Source of the DNA: Polytrichum commune
Taxonomy: Eukaryota > Streptophyta > Polytrichopsida > Polytrichales > Polytrichaceae
Length of the DNA stretch: 64,000 bases
NCBI GenBank assembly: GCA_950295325.1
Contig: OX485803.1
Coordinates: 59,783,554-59,847,553, forward strand
Reading direction: 5' to 3'
The stretch's first letter is position 1, and each line of letters begins with the position of its first letter. The translations under genes were made by a program, and so were the position numbers. The notes under the pieces are model-generated. The model saw only the letters and a program-made list of their open reading frames with translations, ran no database searches and was not told the DNA's origin. Shown here piece by piece: positions 2,253-56,949 of this stretch.

Positions 2253-3779
2253 TTGTTCACTTGAACATGACTAGGAGAGGGTGAACGAACATAACACGTT
2301 GATGTAAATAGTCCCAACGTTCCTTATCATTATTTATTCACATGATGTTAGAATTTCATGGAAGCAATTACAATAGCCTCTTTATACATTTGTCAATGTA
2401 TTTGAAATTCTTTGTTAGCATTTTTGAGAATGTTAAGGGCCTTTTCAGTGCTTGAAGTGTCTATCACATGCATTTCTAATAAGTATCTTGGCACTTTTTT
2501 CCCCCATCATGGATTATTTTGGGTATGCATGTTTTATTCCAAGTGTCCATAGTTAACCCTTTACTACCCAAGGCTATGAAAGGTTGTCTTGAGTGCATTT
2601 CACTTGATTTTGTTTGTGGAATATTCCCAGGCAAGTTTTGAGGTGAAAATGGGATATATCTATAGGATCTTGAAACATGAAAGATGAACTATTTCCGGGG
2701 GGGAAATGGGCATCAAATGCCCTCTGGAATTCTCATAGTATAATTGTACACCGATTGTGGTAAATATTGTGGCCATATATACCATTATTACATGATGCTC
2801 ATGCACCTTACATGTGGCAACCCCATAGTATGGCCCACAACATACACCATCACACATGAAAATAATGTGCAACCCTTGTTGTAACACTTAGATCTTCTAC
2901 CACTCATCATGTTCCATTCTTTCACTCTTAGTTGCGGGTATCAAAGCTATTGAAATTGTGAATCCAAAGAACCTAACCTCATTCACTAAGTCCAAGAATC
3001 GAGGGAGAAAACATCAAAATTTGACATGAAGAGCATTTGATCCTTGAATGGTCACTACATCCAAATGGCTACCAATTAGGAGATGTGTGTGGTGTTTATG
3101 GAAAGAGCTTGTAACCTTTGCAAAAATGACTCGTAGTTTGAGAAAAATAAATGAGATTTGAAAGAAAGGTCTTCGTTTGAAGCAACCATAGGTGTTTTTG
3201 ATGGTAGGTTTTGGTGGTGAGCACCACTTTCACTAGGCTTGTGTTCACATCAAGGAGAGATAATCGCTTCGTTGAATAATTAGCAACACTAAATACTTAA
3301 TGCACTAAAGTTTTTAGTCCAACAAAAATAGTGCAATCTTCAACATGGACATTTGATGTCCAATATTATAGGTTGGTGGATAGTGTGCATCCACGATATT
3401 ATCCCCAATGTTTTAGGTTGAAAATGAGCTTCATTGGTGTATGCAATCAGGTTGCTTTCATGAATATTGCCTCTTTACCCATGCAAATTACTTTGGGACT
3501 AACTCATATTACAAAAACTTATAACATTGTTCATTCATCTGTATGGCATCAACAATATTAAATAATAAAAATAAAAGATGTTTTGATATTTTGGTAATAA
3601 GTATCTAAACAAATGTGGAATTTTGTTAAATTAGCATGGGGCAACCTAATTGCACATAGCAATGTAAATAGGAGGGCGCACAATGTTTACTATGACCAAA
3701 GTAGTGTGTGTGTGTAAGTGCGATTTTATAGAATTTGAACATATGTCTCTAACTACACTAATTATCCCTGTAAAACCAC

Positions 3780-5940: not shown

Positions 5941-7486
5941 GCATTTTTCCTCAAGAAAATATAACATCGTATAAATTATGTTTTCACGCACCTAAATATT
6001 TTTGGTAATGATCAAGCCAATACATTATTTAAGGCCAACTTGATGGCCGCTTGTCATTAGGTGATTTGGCATCGCCCTGCTTATTATTGTCATTGTCTCT
6101 TCAACATTTAACTTAAAATGAGGTGAAGGTTGAATATTTGATGGCCACTTGTCAAGTTGTCATTGGAGACTTGGTGGCCACTTCCCAAAGTAAAAGGTCA
6201 ATCGAGACTCCCTCATTCCCTCTCACACAAAAAGATGAATTTCCCACTTGAGGCCGGTTCATGTGGGGTCCCAAGTCCCAAATCCCAAGTCATGTTAGCA
6301 AGTCCCAACATGGAGGCAAAGACCCAACTTTTGAGCCTCGAGACACCATTAAAACATGGTTAATTATCATTAAAGTCGGATTTTGATTATTTTATGCAAA
6401 ATATTTGTGGGGCTTGTGTTGAGAATTAGGTCTAGCTTTTTGCTCGACCCAACTCTCAGCACAAGTCCCAAGCCTCACTTCCCAAAAAAAACGTTGCCAT
6501 GTAGGTACCCAAGTGTTACTTGGAACCCCATGTAGAGTGGCAAGTCCCAACTTCCATGCTCTCAATGGTTGAGATTGCACGGATTGACTTCGATTGACTT
6601 TGATTGGGACTTAGGACTTGGAACCCCCATTACATTATTAAGCATTGTGCATTCGTTCATGTGGGCCCTGAGAATATAACCATGGGATGCCCCAATTCAT
6701 ATTAAGTCTGAATATGCACTAGGTTGGAGCATCCATGGTTATGTTCTCAAGACCCACATGAATGAATGCACACTGCTTAATAACGTTATGCCGTGTGAAC
6801 CAACCCTTATACCACTAATTTGAAGACATGGGTGTAGAGACAACAAGGAGGAGATGCAATTTGTCGTGTGCCACATTCGTCGTATAGAACAATTATCATG
6901 GGCCATGTCAATACCCATCTTTAGTGAAGTTAGCATCACTTCATTGGATATTTCTCTCACCGTGGGTGCAAGGGTTAAAGGACGAATCTTACAAAGGAGA
7001 AACGTGTGGCCACACTTGAACATTGTGATAGGGATAGTCACACTAATTTAGACATGTTGAATGTTCTTGGCCAATAAGAGAGCATGTCGGAACACTATTC
7101 AACCGATACCAAGCGTTATCCTTCTTAGAAAATTATCATCCACCAAATCTCTACCATAACATTCACGCCTGAATTTGGAGCTTCCGTCACATCTCATGAA
7201 ATTAACCGGGTGCAATACCCTAGATGTTTCTTGAATTTTTCATGACGCCTTGAACAAGAAAAACTCATATATTTGATGGTGATGAATTCAAATTTAATAA
7301 TAATAACAATAATCATAAACCCTTTGTCTAGCAAGATATTGGGTTGGACAACATAGTCCAACATTAGCATGTGGTTGTAGTCCATGAGCGAAGAGACTCT
7401 TCATTTATGCTCGCTGCCTCCTTAGGAAGCCAAACTTTATATCTATCTAAGATAGATGTGTTTGATTCCAACACAACAGTAATATG
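5941..7486. other. Intergenic, no gene seen
   Basis: Open frames are short and without motifs. A partial inverted duplication is visible at 6640-6790, where words such as TGAATGAATGCAC and CATGGGTTATGTTCTCA recur in opposite orientation, so this may be another foldback remnant. Confidence 0.45.
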
Positions 7487-7790
7487 AACACCTTTGTTTG
7501 AGTGGTCTATGATTAGGTGTGGATCTAAAGTCGGACACCATAAAGACACGTGTTTAAAAGTGATTGGACTACATGTTCAAGATACGTGAACCATTCTAAA
7601 TTCAATGATCAACATGATTGGGGGGATATGTATGACCACTCAATGAGCACAAAGACTCTACCTTTTTTAATGAATGAGGTATTCAAACGAGCTTCAAAAT
7701 TTATGAAGCAAATGGCTACATGCGCAATTTGGATTCGCTAATCATCTAGTAGTGATTGCATGTTTCATATCCAGGGCACAAATGCTAGAC
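7487..7790 (+). mobile_element. MITE family A copy 1
   Basis: It matches the family A element at 54961-55324: the words GTGGATCTAAAG.CGGACACC, AAAGACACGTGTTTAAAA, GATTGGACTACATG and ATTGGGGGGA follow in the same order. The 3' part has the shared GGATTCGCTAATCATCT and CATGTTTCATATCC words. The terminal repeats are not clear in this copy. Confidence 0.6.
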
Positions 7791-7804
7791 ATCCCATGAA
7801 GGAA

Positions 7805-8226
7805 TTGTGCACAAGAGTCAGACAACTCCCAATTGAAGATCTTTGCGTTGGAGTTGGACAACTCCAACTAAGTGTTAGAAACCTCCCTTTGGAAGATCTT
7901 TGTGTTGGTGTTAGAGAGCTCCAACCAAAAGATAGGAATATGAGTTAGACAACTCCCAACAGATGGATGTTATTCATTGGAGCTAGATAACTCTCAAAGA
8001 ATAAATCTAGATGGAAATAGACAGTTCCAACTAGAAGACTGGATTAACGAATCTAGTTAAAATTAAATGGTTCTAACTATAAAAATGGATGAATGAATCT
8101 AGTTGGAATTAGATAGTTCCAACTAGAAGATTGGATGAATGAATATAGTGAAAATTAGATGATTCTAACCATAAAAATGGATGAATGAATCAAGTTGGAA
8201 TTAGATAGATCCAACTAAAAGATTGT
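7805..8226. repeat. Minisatellite with palindromic core (about 46 bp period)
   Basis: About ten diverged units each carry a short inverted repeat of the type AGTTGGAATTAGATAGTTCC plus AACT, in which GTTGGA pairs with TCCAAC. The last four cores start near 8055, 8102, 8149 and 8195, so the period is 46-47 bp. Upstream units are less regular. Alternate units share GATGAATGAATCTAGTT. Each unit could fold into a small hairpin. No function is evident. Confidence 0.75.
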
Positions 8227-8579
8227 GATTGAGCCAAAAGATACAAAAGGATCATATGGTGAAATGGTCTATTTATATAGATAAGGAAGCTTCAATATAA
8301 ATTTATTAAGACTTGAAACTTCTAAAATATCTCTTAGATACTATGGATAAAGATGGATAAGATTAGGAGTGCCTTTGGGTATAAGAGAGAGCTCGGGGGA
8401 GGAGAGAGGATTATCTTTTGCCTTTCTCCTATGATCGGGTGGTTCGAGCCCATAGCAATCACAATATTGTGTTTGAGTTGTAAAGCTTCGTAATGTACAA
8501 AGTTTGAAAGTTCCTAAGACTAGTGCCTCAAGTACATTCATGATTGTATTATTCTCGTGTGAAACATGAACGTGATAGA

Positions 8580-9025: not shown

Positions 9026-12000
9026 CATTGTGAACATTGGCTAAATAGTCAAAGCTCGTTGGAGCATTGACTAAGCCTCCACCGGTTGTCAAGTAAGTTG
9101 AGAAAGGGAATGAACAAAAGAGAAAAGTTCATGGTGTGTCTCCAATGCCAAGTCCTTGACTCGGGAAAGACAATTTGCAAAGGACAAGTACGCTAAATAC
9201 TCCTATTAGTGTGGGTGGAAAACTAGCATGGAAATAACGCTTTAATTGTCTAGTCATGGTGGAAATAACACGTGTTCTAAGACCCTAGGTCTTCCCCACG
9301 CTCTTCCTCGAGGCTTTCAACCATCTCCTTATGTAATAATCACTTTACATCAAAAGTAGCATATAATTAAAACGTTCGCCCACATCCAGTTCCCAGAGAC
9401 CATTGAGTGTGGGTCACACTCAGTTCAAACTATGGTTTTGACGTGGGTTGAGAATTAATGTCACCCACATTAAATCTCAATATGAGATTTGATGTGAGGT
9501 CTAATACATGATTATTGCGGTTCACATTAATAGGACTATTTAGTGTAGTGGTGTGAGTTGGGAGCCTATGGGGAATTGACTCCCTTTATTATACCCGGTG
9601 GATGAAAGCAAGGTTTGAATTTCATGTGTCACCCCGATCTGTCCTCTTGAACCAAAACTAAAAAACTTTCAAAAACATTATGAGAATTCTTTATCTTGAG
9701 TAGTATGTTTCAATACGACTTATGTAGGTTTAGCCTTCAATATTCATCATCGACCCACACAAATGATCTTGTAATCATAGGTTGGGAACGTGAGACAATT
9801 GTTGTTTGCATGATAAGTCATGAAAGACACTCCTTTTTAATATTTCTCATCAACTTTAATGTCCACTCAAATTATACATATATCAAAGTTCAATTATTAT
9901 GACTTTCAATTCAAAGAGGTCCTAGGTTGATACCCTACTTCCTCCAACCTTCCTACATACTACAACCCCGGTTGTTCACTTACACTATGTCTTACGTTTG
10001 TTTGAAGAAACGAGAAAATCCGTGACCAAAATTCGGCTAAATCTTTGAAGATGTTCAATGTTTCTTGGAGATTGTAATCCACCATTTTCCATGATAGTAA
10101 AGTATCTTTGAAGTGGGCCTCATGTCCTCTAATGGCTAAGCTATTGGGGAGGCTCTAATAGTAGTAACACATGCAACCCAACTTGACTTGACTCCCTCCG
10201 ACCAAATGTTGCGTTTGACTCACACTATGCGTGGCAATTGTTGCAAAGCACGAAAATTGGTGATGAAAATTTGGGCACGAAGTGGAAATGGTTCAATTTT
10301 TCCAAGAGGATGTCATCAACCATCATCATCATCATCATCATCATGGAGAGGTACAAGTGACGGCCCCGATTTCCCATGGCCCGGGAAGTTGGGATAACAA
10401 ACTTATCTTTGCATAACTTTCTCCAACCGAATGTTACGGTGTTTGTTTGTTTGTTTGTTTGAATAACTCACATTACGGTGTTTGTTTGTTGGAGATTGAG
10501 AAAAATGGATGATGAAAACTTGGCTAAACGTTTGAAGAAAATTCAATGTTTCCAAAAAAGGTGTCAAACACCAACATTGTTTATGGGGCACAAATGAAGA
10601 TAGTTCAATGATGTGTTTAAGTACATTTGGACAAATTTTGAAAATTTGGACTTTTTGGTTGCTTCAAATTTATTGGCGGAAACGTGCATAGATACTGAAG
10701 TTTTATTGGAGATATGTGAATCCGTAGTGATCACTAGGATATCAAGCTATTACTATATGACATTAAAAGTCATAATTTTAGTGCTAAATATGAGTAAATA
10801 AATGTCAACTAGTGAAAATACAATCAAAATAATTGCTATAATGTTATCATAATAAATTTGCATTTTCTATCAAAGGATCTTGCCATACAATCTTATCCTA
10901 GGATTCCATATGAGAACTCAACATGTTATAATTCAAGACTTGGACATAGTCCAATATTATTTATATCTAGTTTTAATTGCAAAAGAGAAACAACCGCCTT
11001 TTTAATTTTTCACTTTCTCAACCCACTCTCACACTGGATGGGGATTAGGAAAATATCCCAAGAGATGGACTATTCACATTCCAAATTATTCACAAATTAT
11101 AAGGATGCGAAAACATGTGTCTAGCACTGCACATGCTATCAAATTGGTTACAAAAACGAATGATTTCCGATGTATTTAATTTATATTTATATTTAATTTA
11201 TATTGAGTTCTCATCCCACTTTGCACACCATAACATTACACAACTCCTTGGTTGTGTGTTGTGGGACCAATACCACATGAGGATTGTTTGTCTTTCATCC
11301 ACGGATTCCTTCTTTATGAGGAGCACTCATGTTTTGTACTGTGAACTTTTCGACAAGCAATTGCAAATTATCAGAGTATTTTAATCACAACCTCTTTCTT
11401 TGGAAAGAGACCATCATGTGGTTGCTTAATACACTCCAAACTTTGTAACGTCGACCTCCTTAATATCACTCCTTCTCTTATATCCCGAATTGTAGGGAAT
11501 TGAAGTTCTCAATTTAAGTCCCCCTCCTTGTTGTCACATTTTCCTCCCAAAAATCATGGATTTCGACAACAAAATAAACCACCACAGAATTCAAACCACA
11601 TGCTCGCACACATGATGTTGTCATCATTATAATTAATGCCGATATTGTAATGTTGACTTTGTGTTATTTCATAGTGTCACACACTACACTAATTCCCTTT
11701 TATCATGCATCCATGTTAACAATATAAAACTCCTGAACGTCACGTGCACTTTGGTCGCCGCAAACGTGATATTACGGAATTTAGAGTGTAATGTTATCAC
11801 GGTCATAGTCCAACATGAATGATTACTTTGAAAACATATTCAATGCTTTTAACTTCCAAGAGGATGTCATCCATCCACTATCATCCTTTCATGGTGGGAA
11901 GGTTATAGTTGAGGAGCTAATAAGGGGCTCAGATATAGTGGTCACGTCCCAAGAGACAAGCTATCTGCCTTCCAAATTACCGACGAATTATAACAACATG

Positions 12001-22399: not shown

Positions 22400-22408
22400 T
22401 GTAAGGCA
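22400..22408. repeat. Left target-site duplication of MULE
   Basis: TGTAAGGCA lies immediately left of the element. TGTGAGGCA lies immediately right of it at 28410-28418. Eight of nine bases match, and 9 bp is the usual Mutator-superfamily length. Confidence 0.8.
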
Positions 22409-22500
22409 GAGGGAAGCTATCTTATGAGCGATGAGCAGTGAGCGGTGAGCGGTGAGCAGTAACACATGAGCAATGAGCAGTAACATATGAGCAATGAATC
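22409..22500 (+). repeat. Left terminal inverted repeat with GAGCRGTGAGC subrepeats
   Basis: The outer 22 bp pair with the right end. They are followed by tandem short units of the type ATGAGCAGTGAGCGGTGAGC to about 22490. Such subterminal repeats often bind MULE transposases; here that role is inferred. Confidence 0.8.
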
Positions 22501-22639
22501 CAAATTTAGTAAAGACACACGGGTTTAGGGTACACAACCAGAATTTTGACAAATTAATTGCATATTTTCAATTATAAATTGCCAGTATTTTAAATGAAGC
22601 ACACGTGAAAGGGCCCTATTGCCATGGATCATTTAAAGC

Positions 22640-23053
22640 ACTTTCAATTCATTGTTGATTTTTATTATAATAATCCAAACCAATACATGTCATTTATTGA
22701 CATCCTTATACATGTAGTTACAACCAACACTTGCACAACTACTCACATTCCACAACACCAGCAAGTTCAAGTAGGTGCATAACCTCATTATATGTATATG
22801 TAGGTGCCATAATTGTGAACCACTCAAACCGCTCACGGTTGGGTCGTAGTCTAAATAAAAATGAAGTTACTGAATCATTTGAAATACTTTTAGTCCATTG
22901 CTAATTTTTATTATAATAATCCAAACCAAAACATGTCATTTATTGACATTAAAATATATGTTGCTTAATAAAACACTTGCAATATTACTCACATTCTACA
23001 ATACCAGCAAGTTCAAGTAGTCGCATGACCTCATTATAGGTATATGTAGGTGC
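22640..23053. repeat. Tandem duplication of transposase 3' end
   Basis: Two units of about 235 bp. Each contains AATCCAAACCAA.ACATGTC and then the minus-strand coding tail ACCAGCAAGTTCAAGTAG.. to TATATGTAGGTGC. The outer unit is a decayed copy of the transposase C-terminus (about 22733-22810), lying beyond the stop codon of the inner one. Confidence 0.75.
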
Positions 23054-24740
23054 ATGAATGAACTTGTCACTCTCGTAATTCACCTTACACAAAAATCTAA
23101 ACACATAATAAAGATGTTTATAATACACCAATTTTCCTTTCTTTCCCAATGCATGAGAGGACATTTTCGTGAAATCCGGGCATGTGCAATGCGAGATGTT
23201 GCCAATTGTGACATGGTAGGTGATATCCTCCTTGGAGACAATATTGATTATCACTCCAAAGCCCGGATATGGAATGGCAGTGACTCCAACCACATAGTAA
23301 TTTTCCATGAGTCCGGTGCTTTCCCATTTGTTTTTGTGATCCGCCAGCGGTGCTATTGGATTATGACGCACTGTCTTCCCAAACCTGAATGTAGGGTGGA
23401 TATCCGGGTTTGGTGGCATACAAAAATGCGAGCGAGGGATGGGAAGAGTTGCGATTGTTGAAAGCCTACAACGAGGGGACAATGTCTCCCTCTGCTGTAG
23501 TTAAAATTCAACATCTTCAAGTGCCAGAACCTCCTTTCTCGATAGATTGGTACCTATCTTCACCGGCCACGTGTTGGGTAATATAGGCCAATCCAAAACA
23601 TATTTCTTCTTACTGCCACTCACACAACGCTTGATATCGTCAAGGCAAAACCAAAATTCATATTCCACATTGTTGGGAGAGCAAAATTCCTTCATGAGCC
23701 CTTTGTATGTCGGAGCAGGTGTGCCATGTTTTCCAATCCGGACTTTGGTATTGCACATAGTCCCTGTAATGGCCTGCAGTGCCCAACATCGTTTGACTGA
23801 GTTGGGTGGCAATCTTGTAATGTGCCACTTAGAAGTAAGACAAACAGTTTCTAACACGGATGTAGTATGAGACACACTATGAATTGCAAACTCAACGATT
23901 CCTCTATGCGTCGACGAGTCGCTCGGGTGTTGGGACGATGAATGAAATAATTCACTTTGTCGGGTCGATGAGAATCACAATCAACACCCGGTGATAGGTT
24001 GAGTTTGCGTTTGGTGGAACCAAAAAACTCTGACCCTTCCAATGTACAATCTTTAGTGTTGACGTCTTCTGCCCCTCGATAAGACTTCGTGGCATCAACC
24101 AATATTTTTGGATCTCCACACCTGACAACTGCTTTGAGTTTCAAAGATGCCAAATAAGGACCTTTACCATCAGACCCCCTCTCAACCATGTCCGGTAATT
24201 TGCAATTTGCATGAAGGCATGGATCATGTCGTCGACTATAGTTTCATATAAACAAGTCATCTTGTTGCCGGATTGTTGGAGCCATTTTTTGTCTACAGTC
24301 TCTGCAAGGTTGCATGTTGGCATTTCCACACGTTCTTTTATTGTCATATCCTATGGACAACACACAAATATGAGGATAAGAAAATATAAGATATATATAA
24401 CAATGAAAGAAAAATGAATGACATTGAATAGTGAATTTTGATATGTACTTACAAATAGCATATGACCACCCCATTGTCTGTAACGAAAGTGCCAAAAACC
24501 CAACCACTTTGAAAGGCAAAGCAGATCTGGATGACAACCACCAAGAACGAATCACATGATACTTAGTCTCGGTGTCGTTCATTGTTTTCGCGTCTTTGTA
24601 ATCCTTGCATATTTGCTTATGTTGAAACTGCAAGAATGGTTTGATATAATTTTGGGTCACCTTATCCAAGCTCGCAGACCAATGGAAAAGACATGTACAC
24701 TTACGTGCAACCATGGAGAAATACGCCACACAATACAAAA
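22985..24740 (-). pseudogene. MULE transposase pseudogene with C-terminal SWIM zinc finger
   Basis: Fragments on the minus strand can be read in order. 24738-24460 has SASLDKVTQNYIKPFLQFQH and SRSALPFKVVGFLALSLQTM. A 102-bp intron with GTAAGT donor lies at 24351-24452. Then come 24350-24205 (MPTCNLAETVDKKW, VDDMIHAFMQIAN), 24195-23870 (PDMVERGSDGKGPYLASLKL), 23875-23501 and 23482-22985. Frameshifts lie near 24466, 24205 and 23870, and a TAA lies near 23500. The last part holds CTCPDF followed by YYKHLYYVF, a SWIM pattern (CxC..CxH) in which the third Cys is Tyr. SWIM fingers are typical of MuDR-family transposases. The catalytic DDE residues could not be placed with confidence. Confidence 0.8.
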
Positions 24741-25188
24741 AAGAAGAACAATCTTCTGAGGCGGAGATGGAGGTAGGTTATACGAACGAAATGGTAAGAT
24801 AATAACTTTAAAATCAAAATAAATTTGGAGGTATGTAATGTATATTATATTGTGCACGCCGAGAATACGATTCCAACGGTATATAGCATGAACAAAATGA
24901 TTTTGTTTTGCATGTTTTAGAGCCAAAAAACAATCAAAGCATCTTCGATCTTCTAAAATCTTCAAAACATGAAGATTTTATGCAGGAAATCTAACCATGT
25001 TAATTTCAGTATACTTTAGCGATTTATGTAAAATTAACATCATCTCCAAAAATTCTCAAAACAATTGGAGTAAATGGCAAGGCTATAATCTATGCACTTG
25101 ATTTTTTGCGGAAATAAATTAAAATATTTGAAAATGTTATAGCAACTCCAGAAAGTGATTCAAATCAATATGCATTTCTCTTCCAAAT

Positions 25189-25959
25189 GGGTAGCCGTTA
25201 ACGGCCACCCTTTCTATGATGCCAACTTCTGTGTTCTAGTTTAGGGCGGCCGTCAACGGCCACCCTTTGTATGATACTAACTTCTCTGTTCTAGTTTAGG
25301 GCAGCCTTTAACGGCCACCCCTTTTTGGGTTTCACTCTTCATTTAACAACATAATTTCTTTGAAATAAAATCATATATATACATATATTTCTTATGTTTG
25401 CTCCATCTAAAAGTGTGGCCGTTAACAACCACCCTTGGTTGCATCTCAGATTTATTGGTATATGTGTTTCTTTTTTCATGTATACACTCATTTCCGTCAT
25501 TTTTTGTCCTTCAACAAGGGTAGCCGTTAACGGCCACCCTTATTGAAAAATCAGATTATTTTCTATACATGTTTCTTTCTTCATGTATACACTCATTTCC
25601 TTCATTTTTTTTCTTCCAACAAGGGTGGCCGTTAACGGCCATCCTTATTGAAATTTCATATTCTTTTCTAAATGTGTTTCTTTTTTCTTGTATACACTGA
25701 TTTTCTTTATTTTTTTCCTCCAACAACGGTGGCCGTTAACGGCCACCCTTATTGAAATTTCATATTATTTTCTATATGTGTTTCTTTCTTCATGTATACA
25801 CCCATTTCCTTACTATTTTTTTCCTTCAACAAGGATGGCCGTTAACGGCCACCCTTATTGAAATTTCATATTATTTTCTATATGTGTTTCTTTCTTCATG
25901 TATACATTCATTTCCTTGATGTTTTGTCCTCCAACAAGGGTGGTCATTAACGGCCAATC
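25189..25959. repeat. Array of nine palindromes (GGTGGCCGTTAACGGCCACC) in MULE intergenic region
   Basis: Nine copies start at 25189, 25244, 25299, 25413, 25518, 25623, 25728, 25833 and 25938. Spacings are 55, 55, 114, 105, 105, 105, 105 and 105 bp. The 22-bp core GGGTGGCCGTTAACGGCCAC plus CC is a perfect palindrome in the consensus, centred on GTTAAC. Copies 6-8 differ from it by one to two bases. The 83-bp linkers between later copies are also alike (TTATTGAAATTTCATA, GTGTTTCTTTCTTCATGTAT), so this is a true tandem repeat. It sits between two divergent genes, where operator or transposase-binding sites would be expected; that role is inferred. Confidence 0.9.
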
Positions 25960-26132
25960 TTATTGAAATTTCAATTTTTTTTGTATATGTGGTTTTCCCT
26001 TATGTATACTCTCACCTTTATAAATGTTTTTGCATATTATTTTAGTTTGCATATGTGATCTCTTTCATATGTATATATTTCTTTTAATTTGTTTTTGTGT
26101 TTCATATGGGTGATATTTTTTGTGCTTTAGAT

Positions 26133-27737
26133 ATGAAAGTTGTATTTCTTTCTGAAGATCAATTGGAGTTGTAATTGCATGTATTTTTTAAGAAAGAAAT
26201 TGTGAACACATCTTCCCGTCTTGAACGGTTGAGGTATCAATCAAGGGCAAAATCAAAATTCAACGTTCCACTGTGTCCAATAGTTGCATTGCCCGTTGTC
26301 AGGCCTTTTTTGAAAAATAACATTATGAACCTGACTGCTCATTTTGTTGCTTGTGGTTATATGGAAGGCAATGGAATTTTTGACATAGCCTTGGAAAATA
26401 ATGAGGGGAAAACAATAGATGTTACCGATAGTATCATTCAATCATGAAGTGAGAATTGGGTACGGACAAATGATGTATTTGAAAAAATATTGCAAACTGA
26501 TGAGGATCTTAAAATTTTCTCTGGCAAAATGTTCATGGTGTGGGACGGAAATTACCATTTGCAAGCATGGTTGCATATTATTAATCGAGATCATACACAT
26601 GATCATACTTGACATTATGTTGTTGAAAGTATTATTTTATACGTCAAGGGAGATATTGCAACGGTAGCTTCACATGAAGTGAATTGGTAATTCCTTCATT
26701 CTTCTCTTTTTATTTGTTCGGTTCATTTGGTTTTCTTTTAAAAAAAAATTTATTGTATATATTTTTTTCTTCGCTTATCATTGGTTGTTTTATTTTGTCA
26801 GGAGGAAACAAAAATTCCATGTTTGTACGAATCTTGTTCATAAGCTTTTCCGCATTCAAAGCATTGATGTGCAACCATATTCATATTTTGAAAAAGTTAT
26901 CTCTAAAGAAGATCTTATTGCCGATGATGCCAAACAAAAATCGAAACATAGGACTTGGTTAACTTTGACTATTAAGGCTCTTAATGGATTTCTATACTAG
27001 GTTATTTTTTCTAAAATATTAGTTTTTCACGCATTTTTTTGTCTTGTATATATATATATATATTTATTTATTTTTCTATAACTATATGTTTTATTGCATC
27101 TTATTTTTATTATGTGTGATTTATGATACTCTTATATTTTTTTCCCTAGTGTAGCAAGAGTTGGGAGATGCTGCTGCTACTGCTCAAAGAAAAATTTATG
27201 AGAAATAGCATGATCATGCATATTGGACTTCAAGTGCAATGGATAAATTTGTTTTCAAAGCTGTTGAGAGGGTGAGATTGACTTTCCATTCGGAACTAAA
27301 GAAACATCTTCTCATTGCAGATTCTAAACATTCTCCTATGTTCTTAGAGCAGGTGAAGTCTCATTATGAAACTCACGATGAAAATCATGAGATGACTCAA
27401 GAAAAACTTTAGATGTTAGCAACTTCGGCAATGGATACATCTATGAAGATTAAGTGGCTTGAGAGGTGGAACAGTTCACCTGCTCTTCGTGGGACTCTCA
27501 AGTTTCCGAAACCAAAATTCAATGATATAGAGTTTCCTAAGTGGCTTCATAAAGCTACTTGATGGGCTCAGGTGATAATTTTTTGTCTATGTTTTTTATG
27601 TTTTTTAATATTTTTTCAATCATTCAATTTTTCTAATCTTTATTTTGTATTTGGCAGTTGGCTATTGAGACCGAGAAGCTCTTTGATGCTACTGTGGCTG
27701 ATATGCATGTGTCCATCAACTATCTTCCAGATGGTTT
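26133..27737 (+). pseudogene. Second MULE gene, spliced, with ParB/sulfiredoxin-like GNxxLxA motif
   Basis: Four exons can be followed: 26133-26686, 26802-27000, 27155-27571 and 27658 to about 27737, with plausible GT-AG borders. Exon 1 encodes ERLRYQSRAKSKFNVPL, FVACGYMEGNGIFDIALE and MFMVWDGNYHLQAWL. The last resembles the DGxHRLxA box of ParB/Srx-fold proteins. Exon 3 encodes TFHSELKKHLLIADSKHSPM and GTLKFPKPKFNDIEFPKWL. Stops interrupt every long exon: near 26172, 26446, 26612, 26998, 27208, 27409 and 27560. Each fits one transition of a Trp, Gln or Arg codon. The gene is divergent from the transposase and belongs to the element. Its function is unknown. Confidence 0.7.
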
Positions 27738-28349
27738 GGATCCTTTGCCCATTATTTTTATTTTTGATATTTGATTTCCAAGAACTTCAACAATTTAAAC
27801 CTACTACCCGATTTATATCTACAATCCACTTTTGTTGTTCTTTATGTTTTGGACTTCGTAAATGTCACCTTCATGATGGTGTTATGATGTATTCAAATTT
27901 TACATTGATGTGTATTATAGTGAGACATTCTAACGTGCTACATTTGTTTTCAACATGAGTTTGCTTACACATTGTCTCCAATTACATAATTATTATCTCA
28001 ACAGTTGAATGTATATTAGTTCATTTTTAGTACAAAATTGTTATAGCAACATTCTCATTTGTTGTTCATTTGGGCTATAGACCCTTACATGTAATTCTAC
28101 AATCATAGGCCCCCAACGGATTTACAAACCATAACCGGGAAAAAATTGAAGGCTCACATGTTTACACTCGCATGCTCACATACTAGCAACCCCGAGTCGT
28201 GTACATATTGGTCTTTTTCATTGCTCACTACTTGCAATCTAGCATTCACATTGTTTGTCCTCCCCAATCTTCTTATTATTGAACCCTAAAAATTTGTTTC
28301 TTTAGGCCACGGTTATAGGATACTAGGGGTCCTATTACCAAATATTTTG

Positions 28350-28409
28350 TTTTCTTCACCGCTCACAAATTACTGCTCATCGCTCACCGCTCACAAGATA
28401 GCACTCCCC
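28350..28409 (-). repeat. Right terminal inverted repeat of MULE
   Basis: Read on the minus strand it begins GGGGAGTGCTATCTTGTGAG, followed by CGGTGAGCGATGAGCAGTAA, the same subrepeats as the left end. Confidence 0.8.
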
Positions 28410-28418
28410 TGTGAGGCA
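28410..28418. repeat. Right target-site duplication of MULE
   Basis: TGTGAGGCA, one mismatch from the left copy TGTAAGGCA. Confidence 0.8.
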
Positions 28419-39211: not shown

Positions 39212-42200
39212 ATGCTTGGAGAGGCAGGGGGCCTTGGATTCTTGAGGGAGACGCTCTGCTGGAGGCAGGGGCGACACAGGCAGGAAGAGGCCGAGTTGGA
39301 TATGGCCGCTGCTGCTGCCACACCTGTTGATGCGGTATGTTACTATGTACCCATGTGGCTGGGCTAAGTAAAGGATCTCCTTGTGAATTGGACCCATGCT
39401 GCTTGTCTATGTGTTTTATGTGTTTTTATGTGTTCTGTGTATGTGCTTGTTTTGTTTTGGGGGGTTATGAGGTGGAATGAATTAGTAGTGTGGTGTGGGT
39501 ATGGAGTGTGGAGTGTGTGTGTGGGAGGGGGGGAGGGGAGGGGGGTCTTTTTCGATGAGGTGATGGTAGGTGAGGGGGTTGGGAGCTGCGGGAGTGGGGT
39601 GCTGTGGGGTTGGAATTGGGTTTGGGTGGGAAAGAATTCCATTCCGGTGGTTGCTATTGGGAATGCTGGTGTCGATTGGCAGGAGGGGACGTGGTGTGGG
39701 GGGAAGAAAGAGGTCATCTGCTTTTTGTTGGTTGCTGGATAGATGGATGGATGGATGGATGGATGCGTAGCAAGTGGGTGGGATAACAGGAGATGATGTG
39801 ACATTGGATAGTGGATGCCTTGTAATTCACTGAATTTTAAATGTGTGGTTAGGTTAGGCATGGCGTGTTGATGCTGTTTGTGTTGCTGATGATTAAGAGT
39901 AGGAGAAAAGAAAAGAAAAGAAGAAAGGCACATGCAAGTGGTGACGATTACATGTGTGTGTGTGTGTGTGTGTGTTCGGCGGTAAATGCAGCCAAGTGGA
40001 ACAGGAAGCCGGAGGGCAGTAGTGAGGAGCGAAAGATTTATGGAGTGGCAACGAGAACTCAGCAGGTCAGTGACAAAACTCAGTCAGTCGGTAGCTTGGA
40101 TTAGGCGAGTGCATTGCGTACAGCTGCAAGGTTGAGGTTTTCTTTTGATGTCAACCAAGAACGTGGGAATACTTCTTGGAGTCATTACCATAGAAAAGGA
40201 GCGAGAAAAGAGAGCGAGGGATTTATATATGGATTTTTACCTATGTTTGTGTGCATACATGAAACACATGTCCTTTCGTTTCTGTGTGTGTGTGTGTTTA
40301 GCTCGCGGGCCACATATGGGGGGCGGAAGCGCCAGGATGACAATGAGGTTATGGAAGGTGGTGGTGGCATGAGGATGTTCTGTGGTGGAAAAAGGTATTT
40401 CTTTAATTGATTCATCGTTGTAAAGTGATCTCTTAGACATGTAGGTATAGTGCACAATGATGTGCTGATCGGCCCCTGGGGTTAACTTCGAGGGTGATCC
40501 GAGCATCATGTGAGACCTAGTGGATGGCAATGAAGGAAAATCTATCTGCATGGGCGTGGGCGGAGTGTGCATGGTCGACATTGGATTTTGGGATTACCGA
40601 AATAGGGTGAAATGGACCAGATGACTTAACCCAACGCTGGGTTTGAGATGGGTTTGGAAACTGGGGTCTAGCTAGAGAATCTATGAATGTTGGGGGGATC
40701 AATAAAAAAGTTTGATCAGGGGTTATGGGATATTGAAGTTGGGGTTTGTGACGCTGTAGTTAGTTTTTGGGGCGGCTATTAAGCTTTTTGTTGCGTGTGG
40801 AGTATTGTGCTCCTTTGTGCTTACTCCAAAGAATGGATAAGTTTTGGAAGACATTTGAGCGACAAAGACAATGTGGAAATATGCCAAGACATGATGAGGA
40901 AGTTTCGGAAACTGGGCTCTATCTAGAGAAACTACAGTGTTCAGGGATCAATAGAAAAAAATAGGGGTTATTGAACTGTTGAAGTTGGGGTTTGTGATGC
41001 TGTAGTTAGTTTGTGGGAGGCTATTAGGCTATTTGGTTGGGCATGGAGGGTTGTGTCCCTTTGTGCTTACTCTAAAAAATGGATAGATTTTGGAAGGCAT
41101 TAGAGAGATGAAGACAATGTGAAAATGCTGAGACATGAGGGTTCAGAAACTGGGTTCTATCTAGGGAATCTATAGTGTTCAGGGACAAATAAAAGAAATT
41201 AGGGGTTATTGAATGTTGAAGTTGGGGTCTGTGACGCTGTAGTTAGCTTGTGGGAGGCTGTTAGGCTATTTGGTTGGGTGTGGAGGGTTGTGTTCCTTTG
41301 TGCTTACTCCAAAGTTGGTTAGATTTTGGAAGACATTCGAGAGACAAAGGCAATGTGAAAATGCCAAGACATGAGGGTTCAGAAAGTGGGTTCTATCTAG
41401 AGAATCTATAGTATTTGGGAATCAATAAAAAAAAATCAGGGGTTATTGAATGTTGAAGATGGGGTTTGTAATGTTTTTTTTGTGTGTGGAGTTTTTGTTC
41501 CTTTGTGCTTACTCCAAAGAATGGATGACTTTTGGAAGGCATTCGAGTGACGAAGACAATGTGAAAATGCCAAGACATGAGGGTTCGGAGGAGAGGGAAG
41601 GAGAAGGTGAGGAACCCACAGCAGATTCGCAGGGGGGAGGCGGTGGAGGCGGAAATGGAGGAGGAGGAGGAGGAGGTGATGCAGGTGCTGCTGCAAATCA
41701 AAGAGTTAGAGGGAAGAAACAACAACACCAGCGGCAACGGTCGGATGCGAAAAAACACCGAAAAGATAATAACGAGGGTGACCAAAAACAACAGCAGCGA
41801 AGTGCATTGACCACTATTAAAGACTCAGCTACACCTGCAGCAGAAGGTGAAGGGGGAAGGATGAGGAAATGTAAGCAGCAACAAGCCCCCCAAGTCAGTC
41901 CCGCAAGGCGGCAACAGGCCCCACAGGCACCCACACAACAGCAATTACCTCAACCCCTAGCTCGGAGGAGGCAACGGCGATTGCCTCGTTCTTTCACTCC
42001 TCCTAAGGAAGAAATTGAACGAGGCTTGCGATCTTTGACAAGGTAATTAACCATACTTTTTGCCTATCTACCTCCACAAGGCAATATGTTTCTCCCTGCA
42101 TACGAAGACCTCAACCAACTACACTAAACCTCTGACTTAGTGTGGCATTAAAATTGTCATTTGACACCCTCTCTAGTTGCCACCTTACAATTGCAAGACA

Positions 42201-54200: not shown

Positions 54201-56949
54201 ATGATATTCTTCCTCTCATGACTCCTGATTGAGATTGCAGGGGGTTTGAAATAGTAGAAGCAAGACACACCTGTTTCCCCATTTGTGGGGCAATGACCGA
54301 GTAGACCCCTGACTTCACAACATCATCAACTAACTTGTCACGGTCACCTCCAGTGGTGCCCATGACAAAGGGTAATCCTCGACTACAATAAAATTCGGCA
54401 TTACCTGCCAAATATACCAGTTTAGACTTGACTGTTGCACCAACAGCCTTCGTAAAAGGTAAAGGAACTGCAGATGAGCAGCTCTCGAACTCATATGTCT
54501 CCATAAGTCCTAAATAATCAATTATTAAGTTGTATCATCTCAACTTAGTGAGTGACTTTTGACATGTTTACCTCAACATTGAACAACATTGCAGAATCTA
54601 ACATCAAACGTGCAGATTGACCCAAGTGGTGCAAAATGTAGGTCGGACAAATAAGAGTACCTCATAGAAGGTTCTACAAAAGCAACATGATTCACTCTCT
54701 GGTAATAGAAGTTTGTCTTCATTATACACCACAAACCTTTACATTCATATATCAACACAGGTTTCACATAGATTGAATGATCAAACTACAACATTGAATC
54801 AATGCCTATCAAACACAGGATTGCAATTTTGCTCTTTTGATATTTCCAAACTTTAGCATTGCAAGACCCAAAAGGTTGAATTTCTGAGTGAATCAATGCT
54901 GAATGAATCATTAGCCAAAAGTTGAGTTAGCAGTGAAAGGAGTTTAAACCCTGAAGGGTAAGGTAAGCAGGCACAATTTGGTTACTTACCTTAAATAGAC
55001 ATCTATATTTGAGTGGTGTGTGGTTGGGTGTGGATCTAAGAACGGACACCAGAAAGACATATATTTAAAAGAGATTGAACTACATGCTCAAAAAATTTTA
55101 ACCATTCAATAGTCAACATTATCAGGGGAACCTATATGATCATTTAATGAAAGAAAATTTTCACCTAGAAAATGAATAAGTGATTCATTTGAGCTCCAAA
55201 GAATATGAAGAAAATGGCGATGGCACAATATGGATTTGCTAATCATCTCACACTAATTGTCTGTTTCATATCCTATGAGATGTGAGTGCAGAGCTAAAAG
55301 TGTCCATTTAAGGCCCGCTTACCTTAAGTATCAACACTAACTCAACATTGAACACCAGTCACTTGCGTTTTGAGATGTACAGGTTCAGAAGCTAACGTAA
55401 GCAGGCCTAATTCGGTTACTTACCTCAATCAGACACCTATATTTGAGTGGTGGGTGGTTAGCTGCAGTCCTCAGAACGGACACCAGAAAGACATCATGTT
55501 TTTAAAAGAGATTGAATTACATGCTCAGAACTTGTTAACCATTCTAGGCTCAACAGCCATCAACAGGATTGGGGGGACCTATGTGGCCTTCCTATGGCTC
55601 ACTGACAGTGGACTTTGATATTTCATAACAAATTGAGATTAGCTCCAGAACTTTCTGGGATTAATCCTGGCTTCTCCAAGTGCTTACATTCACGGATGCA
55701 GAGAAATTTCAACCTAAGTGAATCTGAGTAGTATGAGGTAGCAAACAGCAAAAAGTAATCAAATAAGGCCCATCTACCTTATGTGGCTATCAGAAGCTCA
55801 AGGATACAGAAAGAAAAGAGTAGACGGTGACTCACCATTCACAGCTGCAGGCAATGTGTAGTCCACCACAATGACATTGGGGTATTGCTGCAACACCTCA
55901 TCCATCACCCTCTCTCTGTCCCTGGAATCCACAGCCTCCATATCGATCCCTTGTATTGAGAAATTTCGCCCCAAGCCAGGTCCTGTCAGACATACAGGCA
56001 CCAGTTGCAAGCCAGCCCCCAACGCAGCCTCCGCCACTGCTCCCCCCATCTTCCCTGAGCAGTCATTCACCTGTCCAAATCCCATGGTGCAACATTTCAT
56101 TTCAGAGTTTCATAGTGTCGTCTTCATTTCCACACATCCCCAGCTCATCTCAGACCAAAAAAGCACTTGCATTGCACATGCAAAACGCATGGAAATCTAC
56201 CATCAAAGTTGCAACATTGCAACTCCCATCGTGCAACATTTCATTTCAGAATTTCATCGTGTCCTCTTCATTTGCATACACCCCCAGCTCATCTCAATCC
56301 AAAAGATCGCATGCATTGCGCATTCAAAACACATGGAAACTTATCATCACGGTTGCCACATTGCTACTCCCATCGTGCAACATTTCATTTCAGAGTTCTT
56401 CGAATCCTCTTCATTGCACACACCCTCAGCTCATCTTAGACCAAAAACCACATGCATTGGACATTCAAACACATGGAAACTACGGTTACCACATTACTAC
56501 TCCCGTCGTGGAACGTTTTATTTCGGAACTTCATTGTGTCCTCTTCATTTGCACACATCCCCAGCTCATCTCAAATTAAAAACCAGATGCATTGCACGTT
56601 CAGAACGCATGGCAACCTACCATCACGGTTGCCACATTGATACTCCCATTGTGCAATATTTCATTTCAGAATTCGTCTATCCCTCCTCATTTGCACACAT
56701 CCCCAGCTCAACTTGGACCAAAACAACACATGCACTGCGCATTCAAAACACATGGGAACCTACCATCACGGTTGCCACATTGCTACTGCTACTCCCCGCA
56801 GCTGCTCTTGCACTCATCGCCCTTTTCGCTTCCATCTTGCCACCGAATGCATTCCAAGAAGCAGCGAAGCTTTGAGGGTTGCGCAATCGGTTGGAAGTGA
56901 AGGTGGAGGGCAGAATTGACGACGAGAGAGCGCAATGTAGCACTGCCAT
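51244..56949 (-). CDS. dapB: 4-hydroxy-tetrahydrodipicolinate reductase, plastid type (DapB), eight exons
   Basis: The enzyme reduces 4-hydroxy-tetrahydrodipicolinate with NAD(P)H in the diaminopimelate route to lysine, in plastids. Exons in coding order: 56764-56949, 55836-56070, 54271-54404, 53559-53633, 52985-53086, 52403-52512, 51790-51877, 51244-51312. All borders are GT-AG and all phases agree, giving 332 residues. Residues 1-50 are Ser/Ala/Arg-rich, like a transit peptide. The nucleotide-binding start is NVATVMVNDCSGKMGGAVAE. Next come VDYTLPAAVNGNAEFY, GLPFVMGTTGGDRD, VIAPQMGKQVVAFQAAMSI, the substrate and catalytic box KESHQSTKVDTSGTAKAV, then GHAFHTY and FEFQHNVCGRSIYAQGTVDA. The ATG at 56949 is used; an upstream in-frame TTG is not. 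CRR1, a DapB relative needed for chloroplast NDH, cannot be excluded by eye. Confidence 0.93.
53262..53500. mobile_element. Foldback MITE (family F) in dapB intron 4
   Basis: The left arm ACACTGAATTGTCCTATTAG, continuing GTGTGGGTTACCATTTGGAG, is the inverse of the right arm at about 53440-53497. Arms are about 60 bp with few mismatches. It lies wholly within the intron between exons 4 and 5, 175 bases from the exon 5 border. Confidence 0.75.
54961..55324 (+). mobile_element. MITE family A, best-preserved copy (364 bp)
   Basis: The termini are AGGTAAGCAGGC and the inverse of AGGTAAGCGGGC (11 of 12 match), flanked by TA on each side. TA target sites fit Tc1/mariner-type mobilisation. Inner landmarks are GTGTGGATCTAAGAACGGAC, GAGATTGAACTACATGCTCA and GGATTTGCTAATCATCTCAC. 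It lies in dapB intron 2. Confidence 0.8.
55385..55620 (+). mobile_element. MITE family A, 3'-truncated copy
   Basis: It starts near GTAAGCAGGCCTAATTCGGT and follows family order through AGAACGGACACCAGAAAGAC and AACAGGATTGGGGGGACC. It lacks the right half. It sits about 60 bp after the full copy, in the same orientation, in the same intron. Confidence 0.7.
56081..56790. repeat. Five-unit tandem array spanning exon 1/intron 1 border of dapB
   Basis: Units start at 56081, 56225, 56369, 56502 and 56645, with spacings of 144, 144, 133 and 143 bp. Each begins with a CCCAT.GTGCAACATTTCATT-like box. Each unit also carries, read on the minus strand, a copy of the exon 1 tail AGTAGCAATGTGGCAACCGT plus GATG and the splice donor. 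The true donor (GTAGGT) is at 56763. The unit ending at 56645 keeps GTAGGT at 56620. The next has lost the donor, the following reads ATAAGT, and the innermost reads GTAGAT. Confidence 0.88.

Follow-up and report, generated by a model that had tools for sequence, protein, structure and literature searches.

The nine palindromes at positions 25189–25959 of the window (the whole 64,000-nucleotide stretch of Polytrichum commune DNA that was analysed) are best explained as a transposon-borne docking platform with multiple sites, one whose binder is likely encoded by the element itself and which would take part in regulation resembling that of the VANC proteins; we put the probability of this reading at about 0.5. 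An operator-like protein-binding array had been proposed in the first-pass annotation, and it appears from sequence comparison to be the best-supported reading, with the palindromic core kept in related copies while linkers and spacing diverge.

The 22-mers of the array start at 25189, 25244, 25299, 25413, 25518, 25623, 25727, 25833 and 25938, which gives start-to-start distances of 55, 55, 114, 105, 105, 104, 106 and 105 bp. Eight of the nine copies match the A-type palindrome GGTGGCCGTTAACGGCCACC with at most three mismatches, one of them exactly, and the remaining copy has four. The nine copies first described are thus all present, and 100 shuffles yielded none; the exact 105-bp period that was claimed for them holds, within one base, for the last six copies, but not for the first spacings of 55, 55 and 114 bp. 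The array can accordingly be divided into two parts:

25189..25353, + strand: array section spaced at 55 bp, with dyads at 25189, 25244 and 25299
25413..26014, + strand: array section spaced at about 105 bp, with dyads at 25413, 25518, 25623, 25727, 25833 and 25938

Across the genome (408 Mb, 64 contigs) the A-type dyad 20-mer occurs 539 times at up to two mismatches, with no occurrence of the reversed control. For comparison of copies, 20 stretches of 10 kb were taken around exact copies of the palindrome; the presence of an array in these is no evidence by itself, because the stretches were chosen by the palindrome. Together with the window, they hold between 5 and 48 dyads per array, and in the ten arrays compared the interior units differ from the end units. 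The largest array (L017:4279–9388) has 48 dyads, mostly 104–107 bp apart. Spacing in the 20 other copies is mostly 104–108 bp, with 54–55, 67, 102 and 114 bp and various values of 137–274 bp also found. The earlier suggestion that the copies face the same side of the helix had to be rejected, because spacings of 55, 67, 104–108, 155, 180, 213, 233, 244, 287 and 338 bp follow no common helical rule. A translated repeat was also considered, given that 105 is a multiple of three and that one frame stays open through some arrays, for 367 aa in copy E15, and was discarded because spacings of 55, 67, 104, 106 and 244 bp shift the frame.

Blast searches among copies place the array within a single element with terminal inverted repeats (TIRs), for which the following features were identified in the window:

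22400..22408, + strand: left target-site duplication TGTAAGGCA
22409..28409, + strand: whole element, an internally deleted copy of about 6.0 kb (end alignment, 14 rows)
22409..22430, + strand: left terminal inverted repeat GAGGGAAGCTATCTTATGAGCG
22424..22497, + strand: left subterminal TGAGCGG / TGAGCAGTAACA repeats
22985..24777, − strand: transposase-like gene, 3' part, with disrupted frames and a SWIM-like CxCH stretch near the end
24716..24725, no strand: deletion junction, about 3.4 kb missing (against copy E14, 6423/9792)
24725..24772, + strand: remnant of the acidic upstream ORF, ending in donor-like GAG/GTAGGT
26131..26687, + strand: first conserved exon of gene 2, with three stops here (DGNHRLQAW region in relatives)
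26802..27756, + strand: further gene-2 exon remnants, methyltransferase part missing
28356..28394, − strand: right subterminal repeats, inverted relative to the left ones (repeat pairs I12 and I18)
28388..28409, − strand: right terminal inverted repeat, an imperfect partner of the left
28410..28418, + strand: right target-site duplication TGTGAGGCA

The target duplications of the window copy match at eight of nine positions, and exact 10-bp duplications are found at four other copies (L005, L010, L011 and L012); on the basis of the TIRs and target duplications of 9–10 bp, the element would be classed as Mutator-type. The transposase-like protein gave no Pfam match above threshold, the SWIM match (E=0.075) being below threshold and limited to one piece from the relative E23. 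The ORFs that lie elsewhere in the window yielded no informative Pfam match. At the right end of E23 (L030, L023, L029) the TGAGCGG repeats are expanded in 14-bp steps, reaching roughly twelve units in one copy, and element ends thus carry a second tandem repeat system. Other long tandem repeats lie in the window outside the element, at 40650–41469 (237 bp x 3.4) and 56080–56787 (144 bp x 5).

The window copy is a doubly deleted form of a 12–16 kb element. The loss of about 3.4 kb at 24716/24725 removed the remaining 5' part of the transposase gene, the true intergenic region and most of the acidic ORF, and at the junction 27756/27759 about 2.2 kb of E14 are missing, including the methyltransferase part. 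Longer copies range from 12.3 kb (E14) to 15.9 kb (E15, with extra DNA): these carry the transposase-like gene leftwards, with open frames of up to 794 aa in E23, and gene 2 rightwards, with at least seven exons (splice sites read by eye). The transposase frame of E14 (6569–8317) lies about 1.1 kb away from the acidic ORF on the opposite strand (9441–9839), which is followed by the array and then by the first conserved exon of gene 2. The description of the array as lying between two divergent MULE genes therefore fits the window copy mainly because of its deletions and is partly an artefact; in the longer copies the array is located immediately upstream of the methyltransferase-like gene or within a 5' intron of it. 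Of 21 rows, 18 show a donor-like GAG/GTARGT, the exceptions being L008 and L012, which differ, and L015, which is truncated; an acceptor-like TTTAG/AT is present in 18 of 20 (absent from L011 and L013), with the 5' edge of the first conserved exon in the window reading TTTGTGCTTTAG/AT, also acceptor-like. An assignment of the array to intron 1 was nevertheless not adopted because the reading phases clash (0 versus 1, by eye), and its position is thus either intron 1 or the 5' flank of gene 2.

The C-terminal part of the gene-2 product resembles beta-class N6/N4 DNA methyltransferases in profile matches. The D-type protein matches PF01555 in the motif I region (E=1.3e-5; 25.7 bits, just under the curated cut-off of 26.7), PHROG 3008 (DNA methyltransferase; E=1e-8) and the NCBIfam CcrM model (E=2.8e-5); the A-type protein reaches only E=0.2 against PF01555, and a combined A and D profile gave only weak matches in the PDB, the best being the DpnA methyltransferase at E=0.14. 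Aligned over 452 columns, A and D1 share 48.7% identity in their gene-2 pieces. The standard motif IV of the beta class is (D/N/S)PP(Y/F/W), DPPY-like; this is absent from our alignment, which has DYPDG (A) and EYPDG (D) instead. Because of this replacement catalytic activity is uncertain, and the domain, methyltransferase-like as judged from these profiles, may be non-catalytic. The N-terminal part contains a DGNHRLQAW motif that is, by eye, reminiscent of ParB/sulfiredoxin proteins; this identity was rejected after no match was found in Pfam, PHROGs, NCBIfam or PDB sequences. Searches for phage relatives returned one match that is not credible (E=6), and those for viral relatives no confirmed match.

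That the cores are more conserved than the linkers, as first noted by inspection, is borne out by the 105-bp class, for which 157 units were compared across 21 loci, L017 alone contributing 47: mean major-base frequency is 0.922 over the 22 core columns against 0.847 in the linkers, and the best contiguous 22-column linker window reaches 0.885. Alignment of related copies, the check originally recommended, likewise showed the array to be present there with its core kept and its linkers and spacing diverging; cores diverging as fast as linkers, the pattern that would have pointed to a functionless minisatellite, were not found. The consensuses of two A groups differ at none of 22 core positions and at 14 of 83 linker positions, although this core excess reaches only p=0.038 (Fisher) and common descent accounts for part of the core identity. 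The A copies themselves are decaying, with little codon bias: in a codon-position test on five coding stretches, the first conserved exon alone had fewer changes at second positions.

More distant members of the family also bear on the dyad. A genome search with the methyltransferase part gave 248 matches, and among the matches listed there are, besides the close ones, lineages at about 66%, 53–56% and 50–52% identity. Tandem arrays of dyads are present in seven of nine places fetched in distant lineages (about 50% protein identity); L031 is unreadable, 4166 of its 5000 bases being N, and L032, where the gene is more distant (about 30% identical), has no array within the 5 kb fetched. The relatives' arrays sit near the same gene, with periods of 180–360 bp:

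L033 array: period about 245 bp
L035/L041 array: period 243–244 bp
L036/L042 array: spacings 213, 284–287 and 360 bp
L037 array: period 338–340 bp
L038 array: period 180 bp
L043 array, beside L034: period 180 bp
L039 array: period 233–235 bp

Where the first conserved exon is present (L033, L037, L038 and L043), the array ends about 0–310 bp upstream of it, and in L039 the array lies about 180 bp before the methyltransferase exon. The dyads of these relatives are GGTGCCGTTGCCGGCACC, GGTGCCGCTAACGGCACC, GGTGCCTGTAACGGCACC, CATGCCGTTGACGGCACT and GGTGCCGTTAACGGCACC, whilst their linkers are unrelated to the A linkers and no common sequence is visible in linkers across lineages. Since near-identical dyads are kept at unrelated linkers and periods, the dyad is conserved across lineages and helical phasing is not. 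Two positions in the arms distinguish A from the other lineages, in each case with both sides changed (TG/CA versus GT/AC), and one unit of L033 has CTG..CAG in place of CCG..CGG, again with both sides changed. In the genome, GGTGCCGNNNNCGGCACC occurs at least 1000 times against one control occurrence, and a separate search for the GGTGCC-type dyad gave 385 sites against none. Several further features of these loci were observed. The 245-bp unit of L033 (L033:1799–3159) holds a donor-like GAG/GTAAGG and an acceptor-like TCTGTGCACAG/G shortly before the palindrome, and upstream of the dyad array lies a second tandem repeat (L033:777–1223; 192 bp x 2.3, 98% alike). LINE-like reverse-transcriptase frames (by eye) adjoin the array at L039:719–5093. 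Many GC-rich palindromes of the D and C types (L033, L036, L037, L039) are followed within about 25 bp by a T run, which lies on the gene-2 sense strand in the manner of a terminator hairpin.

The association between dyad and gene was also counted from the gene, by an independent ASCERTAINMENT with the listed methyltransferase matches, not the palindromes, as its starting point. For A-type first-exon matches on C1–C6, an exact A palindrome lies within 10 kb in 13 of 16 cases and is absent from that distance in three; these 16 matches span query residues 8–117 at 82% identity or more, and the count takes exact palindromes only and omits shorter matches and those to the second exon alone. Among the non-A matches listed for the first 29.6 Mb of C1, six of seven have an exact GGTGCCGNNNNCGGCACC within 10 kb; the seventh, belonging to the B type whose methyltransferase is about 66% identical to that of A, has no exact palindrome within that distance. 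Conversely, 48 of the 50 non-A sites listed are at most 10 kb from a match and all are within 12 kb, and in 100000 random draws at most two of six clusters fell near a match.

Whether the dyad is read as duplex or as a folded strand was approached through its pairing. As single-stranded DNA, seven of eight units fold with z of -3.0 or lower. The outer arms vary by lineage and pair better with their own partner than with those of other lineages (36.0 against a mean of 19.6). Pairings as good arose in 24 of 50000 permutations when nine partly related rows were used; seven rows gave 30 of 5040 and six rows 12 of 720. D5 shows no outer pairing. The covariation score of 11 hand-picked units was 0.227 against 0.141 when shuffled, and was reached in one of 500 shuffles, but this signal is only modest because structures slid by +2 and +3 score 0.235 and 0.277. 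Over 11 units G17, C18, C25, G27 and C28 are invariant and C19, T22 and G26 are at least 90% conserved, mainly in the arms. Within the close A family, 218 units show 78 G.T against 159 A.C, hence no G.T excess (63 and 108 in the 114 distinct units), and 9 double changes against 16.4 expected, with pairing restored in five of the nine. These counts (78 versus 159; 9 versus 16.4) do not support an RNA hairpin, as neither G-U tolerance nor compensatory change is apparent. For the cruciform offered by the first-pass annotation the picture is mixed: most units fold well as DNA, but the close family has no excess of compensating changes, so that these counts do not point to selection on structure as such. 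The comparisons thus support the dyad as a double-strand recognition site and do not support a folded RNA.

The main rival to an element-encoded binder is a host MYB-type factor, because the dyad centre CCGTTAACGG holds two inverted AACGG cores, which we take to be an MSA/MYB3R site: the binder could be a host factor, and the array a platform of many MYB-type sites acting as a cell-cycle promoter or intronic enhancer. Both AACGG cores are found in the A and C types, the D1–D5 consensuses each keep one AACGG/CCGTT half, and both halves are lost in only six of 114 distinct A units against 14.2 expected, although this count is biased by the units having been picked by similarity to the consensus. 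We nevertheless consider this explanation unlikely, as the invariant columns fall mainly in the arms, the outer arms tend to a complementarity that a MYB site does not need, and L033 contains a unit reading CTGTT..ACCAG and another, at 3223, that lacks both halves. A purely structural element, whose units would form hairpins or cruciforms at the level of the DNA or of the transcript and might act as an attenuator, could draw on the folding of single units, the pairing of outer arms with their own partners, the covariation score and the T runs that often trail D and C hairpins; the shortage of double changes, the missing G.T excess, the higher scores of slid structures and the lack of outer pairing in D5 make it distinctly unlikely.

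That the array is a selfish minisatellite, arising from functionless tandem duplications of ancestrally inherited sequence, would agree with array sizes of 5–48, with the difference between end and interior units and with the decay of the A copies. Against this, the arrays of different lineages share mainly the dyad, with linkers and periods unrelated, so that the dyad has outlived the turnover of its surroundings; together with the genome-wide excess of GGTGCCGNNNNCGGCACC over its control, this renders the explanation quite improbable. Least probable of all, to the point of being hardly credible, is an internal enhancer bound by the transposase in the manner of the subterminal repeats of other DNA transposons. 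Array and transposase-like gene do occur in one element, and the array is present in deleted copies (copies found via the palindrome), but a transposase-binding array, as first proposed, becomes less likely because the TIRs and TGAGCGG repeats at the ends of the element do not resemble the dyad, and because the array adjoins the methyltransferase-like gene.

For a docking platform bound by a protein of the element, we infer the following scheme. A symmetric dimer would recognise each dyad (9-bp arms around a 4-bp centre) in its double-stranded form, and the many sites supplied through tandem duplication would allow cooperative loading and higher occupancy. The likeliest binder would be the element's own protein, most plausibly the gene-2 product. 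The location of the array beside gene 2 suggests autoregulation and chromatin opening: the gene-2 product would regulate its own gene and maintain an open or marked chromatin state on the element, in the way that VANC proteins act on VANDAL arrays. A more far-reaching version, which we regard as speculative and rather doubtful, is that a large eukaryotic transposon family uses its own methyltransferase-derived protein, aimed at palindrome arrays, to mark its copies or shield them from host silencing; such a system would be the methylase-type equivalent of anti-silencing by VANC, preserving protein and dyad while the sequence in between turns over.

Comparable arrangements exist in other systems. 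En/Spm-type transposons carry arrays of subterminal motifs that are bound by TNPA and thought to gather the element's protein; a short motif repeated many times within a DNA transposon is seen here as well, but the En/Spm motifs are terminal, whereas the present array is internal and the ends carry other repeats. The parS sites and iterons of bacterial replicons, which are palindromes or repeats, serve a dimeric protein that spreads or loads cooperatively, and the likeness to them lies in the sites, no ParB-type homology having been found here. Escape of a transposon from silencing through its own sequence-specific proteins is, to our knowledge, known mainly from VANC. In the available text of the two reports on VANDAL21 and VANDAL6 of Arabidopsis, the VANC targets are tandem repeats of a short motif in non-coding parts of a Mutator-type transposon, including introns of the elements' own accessory genes; the repeats are gained and lost, motif and repeats vary among related elements, and the VANC21 motif YAGTATTAY has nine bases and is arrayed in one orientation (PMC5735166, PMC10398659). 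A tandem motif in the non-coding DNA of a Mutator-type element is also found here, and copy numbers of 5–48 with a kept core resemble the dynamics of VANC-type arrays as far as described in the text available to us (PMC5735166). The difference, on the same basis, is that the present motif is a dyad of 18–22 bp with a core common to lineages whose linkers are unrelated, and that the accessory gene matches methyltransferase models; the word 'palindrome' does not occur in the available text of PMC5735166 and PMC10398659. A survey of MULEs (PMC6446971), again as far as its available text goes, shares with our element the TIRs and 9–10 bp target duplication and includes groups with a second, antisense ORF, but differs in that the transposase-like protein here is without a Pfam match above threshold; methyltransferase, methylase and ParB do not occur in its available main text. 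In the literature covered, part of it available as partial text, we found no report of such an element or of a palindromic site tied to a methyltransferase-like gene. Within these sources, motif arrays inside Mutator-type elements are already known, and the cross-lineage palindromic site together with the methyltransferase-like gene was not encountered. A different type of protein and a different type of site appear in a layout comparable to that of VANC, in an abundant family with many lineages: if the reading or writing is done by a DNA-methyltransferase fold, element-encoded epigenetic factors would gain a further class, and the natural series of dyads (GGTGGCC.., GGTGCCG.., GGTGCTG..) with their matching proteins makes the coevolution of site and protein directly testable.
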